From contig PBIX01000041.1 in assembly GCA_002720975.1 (NCBI GenBank), forward strand, positions 1 through 64,000: 64,000 nucleotides of DNA, in the 5' to 3' direction. The notes under the pieces were generated by a model that was given only the letters and a program-made list of their open reading frames with translations, was not told the origin of the DNA and made no database searches. The stretch's first letter is position 1; each line of letters begins with the position of its first letter. Origin of the DNA: Planctomycetota bacterium (GTDB lineage: Bacteria > Planctomycetota > UBA1135 > GCA-002686595). This document shows, one piece after another, positions 5,608 through 15,143 of the stretch. A program made the position numbers and the translations under genes.

Positions 5608-8600
5608 CTAGGGCCAACGGATAGTGAAGAGGAGTGAACTGGCGGTTACGTCGATCTCGGAGGATCGAAGCATTCGCGAGTTCAACTTCATTCCAAACCA
5701 CTCACTGAAGTCATATCCAGCCTGGACACCAAGCTCGGTGTAGCCGGCTCCGTTATTGTCCACAGCCAGGCGGACGCTGGATCCGTACCACATATCAGGG
5801 GAACCCGTGAACCAGTACTCACCGAATTGGTGGCGCCAGTCAAGCTGGGTCGAGAAGATGGAGTAGCCCGAGGGCGCGAAGTAGGGGATGGGGTGTAACG
5901 AATAGTCCTCACCGATGGTGATGTCGTCGCTCTTCTTCGAGAAGTCGAGCGTGTCGATCTTGGTCAGGACGCGCAGACTTTGCGGAGCAGGCGTGAACTC
6001 ATACGCTGCGAACAGGTTCATCTCAAAGCGCGCGTTGCCATCGGAATAGTCAGCGAACATCAGGCTTGCACCATAGTCGACGGCGCGACTGTGCTTCTTG
6101 GTAACACCCATGCGAGCGCCGGTACGGTGCAGGTCGTTGGCGATGGTCACGCTGTTTTCTGCGACGTTGTCGGCGAAGACGGCCATGTCGATAGTCAATT
6201 CGTTGACGGTGCGGTGCTTGATTCCGAGGTCAAACAGCAGGCGCTCATCAAAGGCTTCGTCCGACACGTTGTAGTGGGGGGCCTCCATGGCACCGCGCAC
6301 CACCGTCCGCTCGCCCATACCCTTGGATCCACGGATACGTAGAATGTTGGCGCTAAGGGGTGTGTTTTCGACCCGGTCATAGGATCGCTGCCCAAGCCCG
6401 ACCGCGAAGAAGTCAACGGCGTCACCCATGGGGAAGATGATGTCTCCGATGCGGCTGCTCTCATGCATCAGCGTCAGGCCGGAGCGACCATTGCGGTCTT
6501 CGGTACTAACGTCGAGCACGAACTTCGGCCGTGTGGTGAGGGCGGCTCCCTGGAGTGCGATCTCGGCTTCCTTGTGTCCGGCGACCTGGGCGATCAGCTC
6601 CCGGTAGGACTGGGCAGCCAGTTGCGTGTGCCCTTCCCTGTGGTGGAGTTGGGCCAGATCAAAGCGCGCCTCCAAGTTGGCGGGCTCAATCACGACGAGC
6701 TGCTCTAGTGCATTCTTGGCAACCATCGGACGCCAGGACATGTTTATCTTCACTTCGCGCTCGAGGCGAATCCCCTCGGAAACCTCAAGCTCGGCTTCGA
6801 AGTCCATGCCGGCACGCAAACCAGCGTCAGGCGCGTTCGAGCCGAACACGTCTACCGGATAGGCCCCTGTGGGCAACCCGGCCAGGAGTTCGTCGTAGGC
6901 GGCGAAGGAGGCGTCGTATTCTTGATTCCAATAGAGCGTGCGGGCGCGCTCGCGCTTGACGTAGGTGTAGGACGCATCTTGAGCAATCAGGACGTCGTAC
7001 TCCGCGATGGCTTTGGAAAACTCCTGTCGAATGACAAACGCGCGGGCCAGACCTAGGCGGGCACGGCTGTTGTTCGGGTCACGTGCGAGAACAGCGGTAA
7101 AGACCTTCGCTGGCTCCGCAACAAAGCCGGCCTTCAACTTCTGGTTGTAGGCTTCGCCAAGAAGGACGAGGGCCGTGGCATTGTCAGGTTGCCACTGCAG
7201 CACGTTGCGCAACTCGCCAATGGCGCGATCCCAGGAGTAGTCACCCAGAGACAACTTGGCCAGTTCGACGCGCAGGCGAATATCCTCACCAGAAGCCAAC
7301 ACAGTGGAGGACATCAAGGCCATTTCGCCACCATCCCGGTTTCCACCCAATTGGCGCGCGCCGGCCAAGCCGTAGAAGGCTTCAGGCGTGTGCGTCATGG
7401 GGCTTTCGAGCGCTTCACGATAGGTGCGTGTCGCGAGAACGGCGTTCCCTGAAAGTAAGTGGGTCTTGGCGAGCGCCAACTGCACCTGGGCGACGGCCAA
7501 GGGATCGTTGCTATGGTTGTCGATGTAGCGTTGGCATGTTGCCCTGGCCTGGGAGTAGGCCTTCAGCTTGAGATGGGCGCGGACCAGCCCCAGAACCCCT
7601 TCAAGATAGTTGGGCCGCTGGGCCAGGACGGATTGGCATACAGCGGCAGCATCTTCGTAGCGTCCTTGAGAGATGAGCGTATTGGAGAGCTCAACACGTG
7701 CGCGCGGCCCGAGGGGGCTGGACATGGGGACCTTGCGCAGGTCGGCCTTGGAATACTCCGCATCGCCTTTCTCGCGGCGGAGGACGGCCATGAGCAGACG
7801 CACCTCGTAGTCGTCCGAGTGCTTGAGCAGCAGGCTCTCGTAGATACCCTGAGCGTCCACCCAGCGGCCGACCAGCTGAAAGTAGCGCGCTTGTGCGAGC
7901 TGAAAGGCCCGAAGGTTCCCCAGGGTGCTGTCTAGACGTGTCAGTGCATCGCTAGCGGCGCTGACGTCATAGGCTTCCAGCAGGATTCGGGCACTCATCA
8001 ATTGGGCGATGGGGTCCGTGGGAGCCACGTCCAACACCTGGCGGTTGACCTGCATGGCCAGCTTGTAGTTCTTGATGAGAAGCAGCTGGTCAACCAGGTG
8101 AATTCGAGGCTGGGTGCGCTGTGTTTGCAGCTCCGTCATTTCTCTGACCAGCCGGTGAGCACGATCCAGATCCCCGGTCTGCAGGTAGCAGAGCACGAGG
8201 TTGGTGACCCACTCGACCTCCATGGGGTAGCGGCGGTGGAGCCTCTCCAGGTAGATCAGGGCTTCTGAGGGGCGCTGCATGTCGAGCAGCACCGGAGCGA
8301 GAAGCAGTTGGTCTTGTTCGTTGGAGGGGTCAAGCTTGCGCAGGTAGCGGTCATAGATCTGCTGAGCGCGTTCAAAGTCCTTCACCCAGGAGTAGACACG
8401 CACGAGCATTGCGGCAGAGGTAACGTCGTTGGGGTCTTCGGTCAGAATGGCCTCTAGCTCTTCCATGGCGGACCAGTACTCACCACCGATGATAAGGACG
8501 TTGGCCAGGCTCCGGCGCAGGTCGAGATCCTCCGGCCGTCCAACGCGGACTTCCTCGAAGGCCTCCCGGGCTCGTGAGAGCTGTCCCTCATGTACCAACA

Positions 8601-8970
8601 GGCCGGCATACTCCATGCGGACGCCGTAGTCATTGGGGACTTGCAGGAGGTAGGACTCGAAGAGAGAAATGCCCTCAGTCCAGTTCTCAAGCGCAACAGC
8701 GTTACGTGCCGAGCGGAGAAGCAGCTCCTGCTCGTCCGTGCGCAGTGGCGTGTCGTCCTGGGGGATTGCCGGTGTGCTGGGATCCTGAATGCCGAAACGC
8801 GCTGGCCGTATGGCCGCTTGAGGATTGACCGAGGCCTCGAGGTCTCGGTCTTGGACCGCAGACGGTCCAGCGGTGGGCTCTGCGAAAGTGGACTCCTTCT
8901 CGCCTGGGCTGCAGGCCGCAAGAACCAAGAAGACGGGGAACCAGGTTGTTTGGGTGGATCGGAGGCGCAT
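5608..8970 (-). CDS. TPR plus outer-membrane beta-barrel export protein, BcsC/PgaA-like
   Basis: A 1120-residue protein. The ATG at 8970 is preferred to an upstream in-frame start because it gives a lipoprotein-type signal peptide (lipobox VLAAC, C20). Residues from about 80 to 800 are tandem TPR-like helices (EYAGLLVHEGQLSRAREAF, LARAFVIRQEFSKAIAEYD). The last 270 or so residues are beta-strand rich, contain the PYFAPSGYSIFSTQLDW segment resembling the barrel of BcsC and PgaA, and end with an aromatic strand (LLFTIRWP). The predicted role is to guide and export the polysaccharide made by the divergently encoded synthase. A lipobox on a protein that ends in a barrel is unusual. Confidence 0.75.
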   Translation of the reverse strand: MRLRSTQTTWFPVFLVLAACSPGEKESTFAEPTAGPSAVQDRDLEASVNPQAAIRPARFGIQDPSTPAIPQDDTPLRTDEQELLLRSARNAVALENWTEGISLFESYLLQVPNDYGVRMEYAGLLVHEGQLSRAREAFEEVRVGRPEDLDLRRSLANVLIIGGEYWSAMEELEAILTEDPNDVTSAAMLVRVYSWVKDFERAQQIYDRYLRKLDPSNEQDQLLLAPVLLDMQRPSEALIYLERLHRRYPMEVEWVTNLVLCYLQTGDLDRAHRLVREMTELQTQRTQPRIHLVDQLLLIKNYKLAMQVNRQVLDVAPTDPIAQLMSARILLEAYDVSAASDALTRLDSTLGNLRAFQLAQARYFQLVGRWVDAQGIYESLLLKHSDDYEVRLLMAVLRREKGDAEYSKADLRKVPMSSPLGPRARVELSNTLISQGRYEDAAAVCQSVLAQRPNYLEGVLGLVRAHLKLKAYSQARATCQRYIDNHSNDPLAVAQVQLALAKTHLLSGNAVLATRTYREALESPMTHTPEAFYGLAGARQLGGNRDGGEMALMSSTVLASGEDIRLRVELAKLSLGDYSWDRAIGELRNVLQWQPDNATALVLLGEAYNQKLKAGFVAEPAKVFTAVLARDPNNSRARLGLARAFVIRQEFSKAIAEYDVLIAQDASYTYVKRERARTLYWNQEYDASFAAYDELLAGLPTGAYPVDVFGSNAPDAGLRAGMDFEAELEVSEGIRLEREVKINMSWRPMVAKNALEQLVVIEPANLEARFDLAQLHHREGHTQLAAQSYRELIAQVAGHKEAEIALQGAALTTRPKFVLDVSTEDRNGRSGLTLMHESSRIGDIIFPMGDAVDFFAVGLGQRSYDRVENTPLSANILRIRGSKGMGERTVVRGAMEAPHYNVSDEAFDERLLFDLGIKHRTVNELTIDMAVFADNVAENSVTIANDLHRTGARMGVTKKHSRAVDYGASLMFADYSDGNARFEMNLFAAYEFTPAPQSLRVLTKIDTLDFSKKSDDITIGEDYSLHPIPYFAPSGYSIFSTQLDWRHQFGEYWFTGSPDMWYGSSVRLAVDNNGAGYTELGVQAGYDFSEWFGMKLNSRMLRSSEIDVTASSLLFTIRWP

Positions 8971-9220: not shown

Positions 9221-12200
9221 GTGACCAACAAGATTCGTCAGTCCCTCATGGTTCTGTGCTCGGTCGTGTGTATCGGGTACCTCGTCTACAGAGGGCTCTA
9301 CACGCTCAACCACTCCAGCACCTATGCCACAGCGGCATCTTGGGTCCTCTACCTAGCCGAAATCTGGGGTACCGTCTCCCTGCTTCTGTTCCTGATGCAG
9401 GTCTGGGATCCCAGTGAGCCCCCCGAGCAACCGCCTCTGGAAGAGGGTGAGGTCGACGTCTTCGTGCCCTCCTACAACGAGGACATCTCCATCCTGAGGG
9501 GCACGCTGCAAGCCTGCCTGGCCATGGACTACCCCCACAGGACGTTCCTGTTGGATGACGGTAACCGGGAAGAGATGAAGCTCCTGTGCGAGGAGTTGGG
9601 CGTCCACTACATCACCCGGGACAACAACCTGCACGCCAAGGCCGGAAACCTGAACAACGCCCTCGACCAGACCGATGGTCAGTTTGTGGCCATTCTGGAC
9701 GCGGACCACATTCCTGAGCCCAACTTCCTCACGAAGATGGTCGGGCATTTCCGCGATGAGGAAGTGGGCATGGTTCAGTCCCCCCACGCATTCTCGAACT
9801 TTGACACGTTCCAGGGACGCGTCAACTACGAGAAGGGTCGCTTCTGGGATGAGGGCCTTCTGTTCTACAAGGTCATTCAGCCTGGACGCAACGCGACCAA
9901 CTCCGTCATCTTCGCCGGTAGTGCGGCTGTCTTCCGCCGCAAGGCTCTCCAGGAAGTGGGCTACATCGCCACCGAGACGATTACCGAGGATATGCACACA
10001 GGTATTCGCATGTCTGCCCACGGTTGGCGCACGGTCTACGTGAGCGAGCGCTTGATCGCTGGACAGGGTGCCTCAGACGTGACGACCTACCACTCTCAGC
10101 GTCTACGGTGGGCGGAAGGCAACCTCTCCATCCTCCGGTATGACAACCCTCTGACCATTCGTGGTTTGGACATTGGGCAGCGCCTGACCTACTTCGCGTC
10201 GATCATCCACTGGGCTGGAGGCGTGCCGCGCCTGGCGCTCTACCTGACGCCCGTGATGATGCTGCTTTCCGGTGTGGCTCCGGTGGCAGAGATCACCCCC
10301 ACTCTGGCGGCCGTGTTCCTGACCTACCTGGGCACCATGATGCTGACCTTGCGGGTCATCTACCGTGGGTACACGAACTACGATCTGATCGAGTTCTTCA
10401 ACATGGCGAACTTCTGGACTCAGATGCGTTCGACATGGAGGGCGGCCTTCACCAAGCAGAAAGCCAAGTTCGTCGTGACGCACAAGCGTGGGGGCCGTCA
10501 GGGCTCGACCCTTCCCCACATCATGCCCCAGATTCTGCTGCTCTCCGCTCTGTGGTGCAGCTTGGTGTATGGATGGGTGCGGCACCTGCTGTTCGACCCT
10601 CAGCTCGACCTGGTGGGCTTGGGCATCGCCACCTTCCTGATCCTGCATCACTCGCGCTATGCCGTGGCCTATCTGCGCTGTGCCATGGCTCCGGCCTCCA
10701 AGCGGGCTATCTACCGCCATCGTTTGAACCTGCCCGTGCGCTATGAGTTCAAGAACAACGAGGGCAAGGTCTTCGAGGGAATCGGCGTCACCACGGACCT
10801 GAGCGATTCAGGCCTGGGCGTTGTGGCGTACTCGAGCCTCCCCACTAACGTGCGTGGCATCGTGGAGGTCATCGTCAACGGCGATAGGATGAAGGCTGAG
10901 GCCGTAATCCGCTATGCCGCCCACCGGGAAGGTGAGGCGCACCGGGGTGCCCAAGCACCCAACCTATACCGCTATGGCCTGGAGTTTGTTGACCCCACGC
11001 CGGAGGCCTTGGATGCTGCCAGTCGAATCGCCCAGCGCTTTGCAGTGGCTCCGTGGTACTCCGTGTTCGAGCGCAACCGTAAGACCGGAGTCCGTGTCCG
11101 CGGTCACCTCTCGGATCGCGAAGTCACCCGCGAGGAGTTCAAGCTGCCGGTCATCATGCGAGTGGGTAACGAAGAGGTGCATTGCACCACCCGCGACCTG
11201 AGCATTCGCGCCATGCGCTGCATCATGGCCAAGCCCATTGAAGACGGCACCGTCTTCGACGCCGAGATCGTGAGCCCCATTGGGCCGATCAAGGTCAAGG
11301 CAAGGTCCACTATCGCACGTGTCATCACCGGGCCTCCGCATCGGGTTTCGGAGTACGTCTTCACCTTCGATGGGTTTGAGGATCAGGGTCGCAGCCTGCT
11401 GCAGTCCCTCCTTGACCTGGGCGGCCAACCTAGCCTGCGCCCCGGGCTGAGCCTCGAACACGAGCGTCCCCGTCGCCCGTTCTCGCGGCCGGTCCTGGCT
11501 GGCGCGCTGGCCGTGGCGATCTTCTCCCCGGTAGCGATTGGTGTATTCCGTCAGGTTCACGATGACGACCTGCTCTTGGCTGGATCGAAGCGAGAGCTGG
11601 CCCTGCGTATGGAGACGGTCAACGCAAAGGATCTGGATAGGATTTTCACCGAGACCCTGTCGGATGACCTCCCTGACAAGAGGCGCCTGCTGCTCCTGAA
11701 GGACGCCCTTGAGGAGAGCAAGCGCTTTCCCGAGCTTGTGCGTGTCTGCCGTATCCTGTCCTCCCAAGACCCCAACGATGCCGACATGGGAATGGCCCTG
11801 GCGAGTGCTCTGACCCTCGCGGGCCGTTATAGAGAGGCGGAGGACATCTGTCAGCATTGGGTGTCACGCATCAGCCAAGAGGGTGCCGAGCCCACTGACC
11901 TCCTGACGTTCCAGGTGCTGCAAGCTCGTAATACGCTGGCGTCTGGGGATGCCTTCGCTGCCCTTGACCGGTTCCGCCGTGCCCTGGCCTTGTTCCCCGA
12001 GGACATTCCGACGCGGAAGGAGTACGCCGGTCTCTTGCTTCAGGTCGGCCTGCCCGATGAGGCTCTCCGGCAATATGCTGCGATTCCCCAGGATCTGGCC
12101 GTGCGCATGGAGCTGGTGTCCATCTACTCTGCCCTTGAGGACTTTGCAGCTGCCGAGAATCTGATTCGCGAGATGTTGCAGGAGAACCCGAGCGACCGTG

Positions 12201-12751
12201 GATTCCAGCTGAAGTTGGCGGAGCTGCTCACCTGGGAGAAGCGTTACGACGAGTCTGAGCGCATCTATCGCGAACTCTTGGCTCAAAACCCCTACGATGT
12301 GGATATTCGCATCTCTCTTGCAGAGACCATGACCTGGGCCGGTGAAGCAGACCTGTCGCTGGTGGAATACGGCCACATGATTGATGAGGGCAACGACGAC
12401 TGGCGTCTCCTTGCAGGTTTCCTCGATGCTTTCTTGGGTGCGGAACGTCGCACGGATAGCGACACGCGGCGCCTGATGTGGATGGTCAGCCTGTACAACC
12501 GCGCCGCCGAGCCTCCGACCTTGGACATTGCGGGGCGCTTGGCTACGGCCCTGACCCTTGTCGGGGACTTCACGAGCTCCTTGGACATGCTGCAGACGGC
12601 CGTTAAGGAAAACCCCGAGAGTCGAAGTCTGCGAATGCGTCTCGCCGACGCGCTCAGCTCCGCAGGGAGACACTCCGAGGCTCAACACCACTATCGGGCT
12701 CTTCTCTCTGAGGCCCGAGAGAAGGGTCGTAGCAGTAGTACCCGCTATTGA
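9221..12751 (+). CDS. BcsA-like processive glycosyltransferase fused to two PilZ-like domains and a TPR domain
   Basis: A 1176-residue synthase with a GTG start. Two N-terminal membrane helices (about 8-29 and 38-62) precede a GT2 domain with DDG, D160-A-D162, T255-E-D257 and the processive motif Q293-RLRW. Four more helices follow, then a PilZ domain with RxxxR (R495-R499) and DLSDSG (526-531), the c-di-GMP binding pattern of BcsA. A second PilZ-like unit (about 625-735, with RDLSIRA) lacks the arginine motif. A helix near 757-775 leads into TPR repeats to the C-terminus (about 830-1170), predicted periplasmic. Likely makes cellulose or a related beta-glycan from a nucleotide sugar under c-di-GMP control. 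The TPR fusion is not part of classical BcsA. Confidence 0.9.
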   Translation: MTNKIRQSLMVLCSVVCIGYLVYRGLYTLNHSSTYATAASWVLYLAEIWGTVSLLLFLMQVWDPSEPPEQPPLEEGEVDVFVPSYNEDISILRGTLQACLAMDYPHRTFLLDDGNREEMKLLCEELGVHYITRDNNLHAKAGNLNNALDQTDGQFVAILDADHIPEPNFLTKMVGHFRDEEVGMVQSPHAFSNFDTFQGRVNYEKGRFWDEGLLFYKVIQPGRNATNSVIFAGSAAVFRRKALQEVGYIATETITEDMHTGIRMSAHGWRTVYVSERLIAGQGASDVTTYHSQRLRWAEGNLSILRYDNPLTIRGLDIGQRLTYFASIIHWAGGVPRLALYLTPVMMLLSGVAPVAEITPTLAAVFLTYLGTMMLTLRVIYRGYTNYDLIEFFNMANFWTQMRSTWRAAFTKQKAKFVVTHKRGGRQGSTLPHIMPQILLLSALWCSLVYGWVRHLLFDPQLDLVGLGIATFLILHHSRYAVAYLRCAMAPASKRAIYRHRLNLPVRYEFKNNEGKVFEGIGVTTDLSDSGLGVVAYSSLPTNVRGIVEVIVNGDRMKAEAVIRYAAHREGEAHRGAQAPNLYRYGLEFVDPTPEALDAASRIAQRFAVAPWYSVFERNRKTGVRVRGHLSDREVTREEFKLPVIMRVGNEEVHCTTRDLSIRAMRCIMAKPIEDGTVFDAEIVSPIGPIKVKARSTIARVITGPPHRVSEYVFTFDGFEDQGRSLLQSLLDLGGQPSLRPGLSLEHERPRRPFSRPVLAGALAVAIFSPVAIGVFRQVHDDDLLLAGSKRELALRMETVNAKDLDRIFTETLSDDLPDKRRLLLLKDALEESKRFPELVRVCRILSSQDPNDADMGMALASALTLAGRYREAEDICQHWVSRISQEGAEPTDLLTFQVLQARNTLASGDAFAALDRFRRALALFPEDIPTRKEYAGLLLQVGLPDEALRQYAAIPQDLAVRMELVSIYSALEDFAAAENLIREMLQENPSDRGFQLKLAELLTWEKRYDESERIYRELLAQNPYDVDIRISLAETMTWAGEADLSLVEYGHMIDEGNDDWRLLAGFLDAFLGAERRTDSDTRRLMWMVSLYNRAAEPPTLDIAGRLATALTLVGDFTSSLDMLQTAVKENPESRSLRMRLADALSSAGRHSEAQHHYRALLSEAREKGRSSSTRY

Positions 12752-14030: not shown

Positions 14031-15143
14031 ATGACGCACCCCCGACGGACAACCTATTGGGATTACATCCACGTCGAGGACCTCCTGTCCTTGCAGGGTG
14101 GGCTTCCCGAAGATATTGCCGATCCCAGCAACGATGAAGTCCTCTTCATCACCGTCCACCAGGTCTTCGAGTTGTGGTTTCAACTCGTCCTGCGGGAGCT
14201 CAACTCGGCACGGGACCTCTTTGGGAGAGACCTTGTCCAAGAGCAGGAACTCTCGGGGGCTGTGGCAAGCTTGCGCAGGATCAGCACGATTCTGGCTGTG
14301 GCCGCCGATCACTTCCGGGTAATGGAGACCTTGCCCACGCGGGAGTATCTGGAGTTCCGCAAGAAGCTCATGCCGGCCAGTGGTGGGCAGAGCGCTCAGA
14401 TGCGCCAGATCGAAATCCTATTTGGGCTCGACGATCGGGACCGCGTCCCCTTGGGTGACAAAGACTGGCACATGAACATCCTGCGAGAGGCCGATGGATC
14501 AGAAGGTCCTGCATATAAGCGGGTCGCGGGCCAGATGGAGGACGGCCCGAGCCTCAGGGACGCCATTGACTCTTGGCTGTTACGTACTCCGATCGATGGC
14601 GTGGCGCACGAAGATCCCGATGCAGACGTGGCTTTGGAGAGGTTCATCTCTCGCTATCTCGCTGCCCATCAAGGTGAGGTCGAAGCCAACCTCGAGTACT
14701 CCAAGTCCATCATGGAGGGCGACGCGGCCCATGAGAACTTGGAGGATCGCTATCGGTGGGAAGCCAAGTCCGCGGAGAAATTCCTGCGTCCCAGCGAGGA
14801 CGAGGGTGGTGCTCGCATCGCACGTATCCGTGCAGCAATGATCTTCATCGAGACCTATCGAGAACTTCCTCTCCTGGCTTGGCCCAGGGAGGTGCTCAAC
14901 GAACTGGTGAGAGTTGAGCAGCGGTTTCTCATCTTCCGCCAGCGCCATGCGCGGATGGTGGAGAGGGTTATTGGCTCCAGGACAGGCACCGGTGGTAGTG
15001 AGGGCGTCAAGTACCTCGACGAGACCGCCCTGCGCTATCGGATCTTCAGGGATCTATGGGCCGTGCGCACGCTCATGATCCGGCCTGGGGCCACACCGAA
15101 GCTGGAGCGACCCGAGTTCTACGGTTTCCGCAGCGACGGCTAG
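14031..15143 (+). CDS. kynA: Tryptophan 2,3-dioxygenase
   Basis: A 370-residue haem dioxygenase that opens the indole ring of L-tryptophan to give N-formylkynurenine. Family hallmarks are TYWDYIHVEDLL near the N-terminus, HQVFELWFQLVLREL (substrate and haem pocket), the haem-ligand region RHARMVERVIG, and GTGGSEGVKYL near the C-terminus. It is longer than the roughly 280-300 residues I expect for bacterial enzymes. No other kynurenine-pathway gene is in the window. The gene stands alone, convergent with the porin gene, whose stop lies 17 bases away. Confidence 0.9.
   Translation: MTHPRRTTYWDYIHVEDLLSLQGGLPEDIADPSNDEVLFITVHQVFELWFQLVLRELNSARDLFGRDLVQEQELSGAVASLRRISTILAVAADHFRVMETLPTREYLEFRKKLMPASGGQSAQMRQIEILFGLDDRDRVPLGDKDWHMNILREADGSEGPAYKRVAGQMEDGPSLRDAIDSWLLRTPIDGVAHEDPDADVALERFISRYLAAHQGEVEANLEYSKSIMEGDAAHENLEDRYRWEAKSAEKFLRPSEDEGGARIARIRAAMIFIETYRELPLLAWPREVLNELVRVEQRFLIFRQRHARMVERVIGSRTGTGGSEGVKYLDETALRYRIFRDLWAVRTLMIRPGATPKLERPEFYGFRSDG

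Follow-up and report, generated by a model that had tools for sequence, protein, structure and literature searches.

On balance, we read the open reading frame P0001 as the inner-membrane part of a beta-glucan secretion system that would be gated by c-di-GMP and do without BcsB; a TPR arm carried by the synthase chain itself would take over the BcsB tethering of an outer-membrane TPR porin. P0001 (9221..12751, + strand, 1176 aa) lies in the window, the 64,000-nucleotide stretch of a Planctomycetota bacterium contig that was analyzed here, and consists of a BcsA-like synthase, two PilZ domains (PilZ1 and PilZ2), a membrane helix and TPRs. The reading frame, its coordinates and this domain order are as given in the initial annotation, and Pfam matched GT2, two PilZ stretches and TPRs along the chain. 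Full-length homologues were found in about 30 genomes of a single planctomycete order, spread over three families (the genus and family of the window and two further families), with identities reaching down to 36-38%. The persistence of full-length homologues at this level places the architecture far above chance, and their lack of stops rules out an annotation artefact or a chance frameshift fusion. The hosts of the fused form are uncultured, mostly marine Planctomycetota; where identified, each source is a MAG, either of Planctomycetota or of an uncultured bacterium. Plasmid records contain many bcsA homologues, none of which spans 80% of the P0001 chain.

The GT2 core of P0001 (residues 1-488; 9221..10684, + strand) contains six membrane helices equivalent to TM3-TM8 of R. 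sphaeroides BcsA, as judged from alignment to 4hg6 and TIGR03030, from hydropathy and from AF2 helices. Since the alignment begins only at TIGR03030 position 58 and at residue 72 of R. sphaeroides BcsA (4hg6), TM1-TM2 appear to be absent and the six channel helices to be present. The BcsA channel is formed by TM3-8 (PMC4330554). The core carries the GT2 motifs LDDG (111-114), DAD (160-162), TED (255-257) and QRLRW (293-297), and FVVTHK fits the gating-loop motif FxVTxK. Across the fused family, DDG, DxD, TED, QxxRW and FxVTxK are invariant or nearly so. With moderate confidence, we take the product to be a glucan, probably a beta-1,4-glucan. A smaller yet appreciable chance goes to a diverged synthase that makes another beta-glucan or a related polymer rather than cellulose, since the cysteine of FFCGS is an alanine in P0001, every member of the BcsB-less clade has FAGS, FTGS or FAGT at this site, and P0001 scores 378.7 bits against the TIGR03030 cellulose-synthase equivalog, below the cut-off of 699.1. 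In addition, the glycosidases next door belong to GH5, a broad family, and FxVTxK and QxxRW are common to all GT2 beta-glucan synthases (PMC6821405). Against this, the top PDB sequence matches of P0001 are BcsA chains (E 4e-79), a PilZ domain follows the core as in BcsA, and GH8, the BcsZ family, occurs in four of the sister split loci described below. On the cellulose-like reading, the core would polymerize a beta-glucan, most likely beta-1,4-linked, and thread it through the TM3-TM8 channel.

PilZ1 (residues 490-612; 10688..11056, + strand) sits after the last channel helix and contains both RxxxR (495-499) and the DxSxxG motif, here DLSDSG (526-531). Among 36 aligned homologues, some of them from near-identical genomes, R495, R499, D526 and G531 are invariant (36/36), and S528 is replaced by Asn or Thr in most relatives. 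A second PilZ-like unit, said to be without the arginine motif, had been noted in the initial annotation, with a profile search at 625-735 as the check. Scanned alone, PilZ2 (residues 628-738; 11102..11434, + strand) matched PF07238 with E = 7e-7 and 30.0 bits, against a gathering cut-off of 22.5, and AF2 predicted six strands (E643-E719) and a C-terminal helix (723-735) in the same order as in PilZ1, with pLDDT of about 70-80, which supports the PilZ fold. Aligned to each other, the PilZ1 and PilZ2 families are collinear across 104 columns (E 4.6e-6), RxxxR falling on RxxxR and Asp on Asp. Contrary to the earlier description, PilZ2 does contain the arginine motif (RxxxR 633-637, here R633-EVT-R637), placed six residues ahead of a conserved Pro with the same spacing as in PilZ1. 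The second motif, DLSIRA (D659-L-S-I-R-A664), has Ala in place of the motif Gly, a position occupied by Ala in 26 of the 36 homologues and by Gly in the other 10 (10/36). R633, R637 and D659 are invariant in all 36. Only 7 of the 111 PilZ2 positions are invariant in a 21-row alignment, and the chance that three given positions all fall among those seven is about 1.6e-4 if positions are treated as equal. Complete RxxxR and DxSxxG motifs are found in PilZ2 of the relatives L111-L113 and of the split clade. Together, the conservation of R633, R637 and D659 and the full motifs of these relatives indicate that PilZ2 is most likely a c-di-GMP site, or the recent descendant of one. There are thus good grounds to regard PilZ2 as a homologue of PilZ1 that keeps the c-di-GMP-binding residues and probably binds the ligand. 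Profile searches of PilZ1 and PilZ2 against PDB sequences gave no or spurious matches and were uninformative. GGDEF proteins occur in all ten host genomes tested (10/10), indicating that c-di-GMP can be made there. We propose that the tandem cytoplasmic PilZ domains would both bind c-di-GMP and control the FxVTxK gating loop. One synthase of the split type (L081:7579-10119, + strand) has three consecutive PilZ stretches by Pfam.

In bacterial cellulose synthesis, BcsB is seen as the partner of the synthase and as its tether to BcsC. No PF03170 (BcsB) match was found in the fused group (20 + 10 genomes, the window's own and 29 others) or in 12 genomes of the split type. The same model detected BcsB in an E. 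coli control and, beside bcsA, in 4/4 related genomes that have a canonical bcsA and belong to the planctomycete family f49, which resembles the anammox group. Within P0001 itself, residues 757-1176 matched TPR models, and no BcsB domain was among the Pfam matches listed for them. Incompleteness of the MAGs does not account for a lack this uniform. A BcsB that has diverged beyond the reach of the PF03170 model could escape detection, an explanation that is less supported because no gene besides those for the synthase, the TPR-barrel protein and GH5 is conserved across the gene neighbourhoods.

The TPR-barrel protein of the window, P0002 (5608..9132, - strand), is encoded next to the synthase and has a likely true start at 8970 (MRLRSTQ...) and a lipobox (LAAC); most of its relatives likewise have a lipoprotein-type N-terminus. 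A TPR array is followed by a predicted outer-membrane barrel (residues 870-1172; 5617..6525, - strand), modeled with 16 strands at a mean pLDDT of 80. The barrel superimposes on those of BcsC (Z 25.4, rmsd 5.0, 331 aligned), PgaA (Z 24.6, rmsd 3.2, 277 aligned) and PelB (Z 24.4, rmsd 4.8, 328 aligned), and the next porin after these follows at Z 17.2. From these models, P0002 is predicted to be a TPR-barrel protein of the BcsC/PgaA/PelB fold, not assignable to one of the three. It shares with these secretins the order of TPR array and predicted 16-strand barrel, at Z 24-25 to all three, and differs from them in its lipoprotein signal and in having no Pfam barrel match. The BcsC model NF008520 gave 30.7 bits, through the TPRs only, against a cut-off of 858. 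The BcsC-like partner proposed by the initial annotation is therefore present next door, as a predicted secretin-type barrel. The P0002 gene adjoins the synthase gene in nearly all fused loci, and this adjacency holds in divergent, same-strand and convergent gene orders.

Two GH5 genes flank the pair. P0004 (4484..5701, - strand) has an N-terminal membrane anchor and keeps the catalytic motifs NEP and GECG, and its relatives are lipoproteins or signal-anchored. P0003 (12806..13924, + strand) keeps NEP and GEFG and has no evident export signal; it starts 54 bases past the synthase stop codon, with a basic, Arg-rich N-terminus. GH5 paralogues beside the system in two other loci (L031:2740-3846 and L032:2893-3987, both - strand) are without the NEP catalytic motif and are apparently degenerate or binding-only. 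A membrane-bound GH5 in place of the GH8 BcsZ might trim stalled chains, a role to which we attach weak confidence. Elsewhere in the window, 14031-15143 encodes a divergent protein of the tryptophan 2,3-dioxygenase family (145 bits, where the equivalog cut-off is 390.7). The window's own genome (G000) also has four matches to PF18582, the hydrazine-synthase alpha domain, on contigs C51, C92 and C34, so either PF18582 extends beyond anammox-type genomes or this genome carries relatives of the domain.

In E. coli, BcsB forms a semicircle whose terminal copy holds BcsC by its N-terminal TPRs; the 19 TPRs of BcsC reach about 150 Å, and BcsB about 70 Å (PMC11379886). The TPR superhelix of P0001 (residues 800-1174; 11618..12742, + strand), predicted to be periplasmic, has about 24 helices at 802-1174 in the AF2 model, that is, about 375 residues or about 12 TPRs, and matches TPR superhelices. 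The TPR assignment of the initial annotation thus stands, and its length of about 340 residues was too short. At the rise of BcsC, 12 TPRs would span about 95 Å, long enough to stand in for BcsB. After PilZ2 the chain would recross the membrane, placing its TPRs in the periplasm, where the arm would meet the N-terminal TPRs of P0002 in the tether role of BcsB; the P0002 barrel would then export the polymer, so that synthesis and export would be coupled without BcsB. Since the synthase has a predicted periplasmic TPR arm and BcsB goes undetected, the arm as tether is the simplest reading, and we give the docking of the arm on the P0002 TPRs moderate confidence. It is unlikely, though worth weighing, that a periplasmic arm instead guides the polymer, recruits GH5 or oligomerizes the synthase, replacing the clustering or guiding function of BcsB and not its tether. 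The TPRs of BcsC bind a putative cello-oligosaccharide (PMC11379886), so TPR grooves can carry polysaccharide, those of PelB have been proposed to act as rails (PMC12141448), and the GH5 genes are linked as tightly as that of P0002. Such a role fits less well with the way P0002 remains the neighbour at nearly all loci despite rearrangement, or with the canonical systems, where contact with the porin TPRs has to be made from the synthase side. The bridging of synthase and porin suggested by the initial annotation stays plausible and draws its best support from two observations: BcsB goes undetected in these genomes, and elsewhere in the phylum the system occurs in a split version.

This split version is found at six f49 loci (L079-L083 and L085), where the tandem-PilZ synthase ends without a TM helix or TPRs, and an adjoining gene of 137-161 aa supplies a single TM helix with two to three TPRs. 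The separate protein has a basic N-terminus followed by the helix, which predicts a periplasmic C-terminus. Its alignment to P0001 is collinear, starting where the TM helix ends and running through FQxVYKxEILL against FRQVHDDDLLL into the first TPRs. TPRs resemble one another in general, and the separate protein, used as a query, matches the final TPRs of P0001 as well. Agreement within the TPRs is therefore non-specific, and it is the juxtamembrane match and the gene order that carry weight. Genes for a TPR-barrel protein and a GH8 are adjacent in 4/6 split loci, and in the other 2/6 the TPR-barrel gene is not adjacent. Three of the loci (L081, L082 and L085) have two tandem synthase genes, which may act as a pair. 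The split form is thus like P0001 in the order of parts, in that no BcsB was detected and in a PilZ2 with RxxxR and DxSxxG, and unlike it in being encoded by two genes, with far fewer TPRs, GH8 rather than GH5 and an often duplicated synthase. In a tree of the synthase cores, the fused proteins formed one clade (100/99), sister to the f49 tandem-PilZ synthases with moderate support (91/89) at a point where long branches meet. Fused and split forms both branched away from the BcsB-linked BcsA proteins, among them those of other f49 genomes. We judge it possible, if not quite probable, that a tandem-PilZ synthase with a TM-TPR adaptor replacing BcsB is ancestral and was fused once in this order, which would define a distinct BcsB-independent class whose synthases have two c-di-GMP sites each and whose TPRs couple directly to those of the outer-membrane secretin.

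The periplasmic placement of the arm depends on the last membrane helix (residues 757-776; 11489..11548, + strand), which had been put at about 757-775 and contains the invariant residues P757, P770 and F776, with an invariant D782 just beyond. Averaged over the family, no other 19-mer of the chain is as hydrophobic (mean KD 2.14), and the family hydropathy profile gives the six core helices and this one, seven predicted TM helices in all. Its flanks have family means of 3.1 K/R on the N-side and 3.2 D/E on the C-side. Counted from a basic, cytoplasmic N-terminus, seven helices place the C-terminus in the periplasm. The helix count and the flanking charges, read from sequence, thus give strong reason to consider the P0001 TPRs most likely periplasmic, as first proposed. 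The AF2 model of the full chain has a pTM of 0.34 and pLDDT below 50 in the membrane core, and this weakness of the core means that the model does not probe the topology. Structure comparison with the full-chain model returned only TPR proteins, as TPRs fill the list, and does not thereby probe the PilZ domains. That 757-776 does not span the membrane, leaving a cytoplasmic TPR block to bind a regulatory or substrate-supplying partner, is very improbable: the helix has an invariant Pro in its middle and the topology is a prediction from sequence, but the segment is the most hydrophobic of the chain with a charge bias for N-in, C-out, the separate TM-TPR homologue opens with it as a signal-anchor-like N-terminus, and the neighbouring gene encodes an exported TPR protein.

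Compared with the BcsA-BcsB-BcsC systems of E. coli and R. sphaeroides, the P0001 system has the same GT2 core with TED, QxxRW and FxVTxK, the same PilZ with RxxxR straight after the last channel helix, and genes for a TPR-barrel outer-membrane protein and glycosidases next door. It differs in having no detectable BcsB and apparently no TM1-TM2, in adding a second PilZ, an extra TM helix and about 12 predicted periplasmic TPRs to the synthase chain, and in having GH5 for GH8, a lipoprotein porin and a replaced FFCGS cysteine. A synthase and a periplasmic partner are also joined in one chain in AcsAB and in the reported Zymomonas BcsAB fusion (PMC7112194); the fused partner there is BcsB, whereas in P0001 it is a TPR block without Pfam-detected BcsB homology. 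In the Alg8-Alg44 alginate polymerase, the inner-membrane part likewise comprises a GT2 synthase, a PilZ domain, a single TM helix and a periplasmic domain (PMC8461298). Unlike P0001, it consists of two chains, the periplasmic domain of Alg44 is a membrane-fusion domain and not TPR, and polymer and porin are different.

These results point to a polysaccharide system of marine Planctomycetota that went unmentioned in literature searches covering BcsA of planctomycetes or anammox bacteria, tandem PilZ domains and TPR fusions. The retention of the arginine motif in both PilZ domains raises the question of two-site c-di-GMP gating. A synthase-adaptor fusion would offer a single-chain handle on the coupling of synthesis and export across the periplasm, and a lineage with a TPR adaptor and no detectable BcsB makes the minimal need for BcsB testable.
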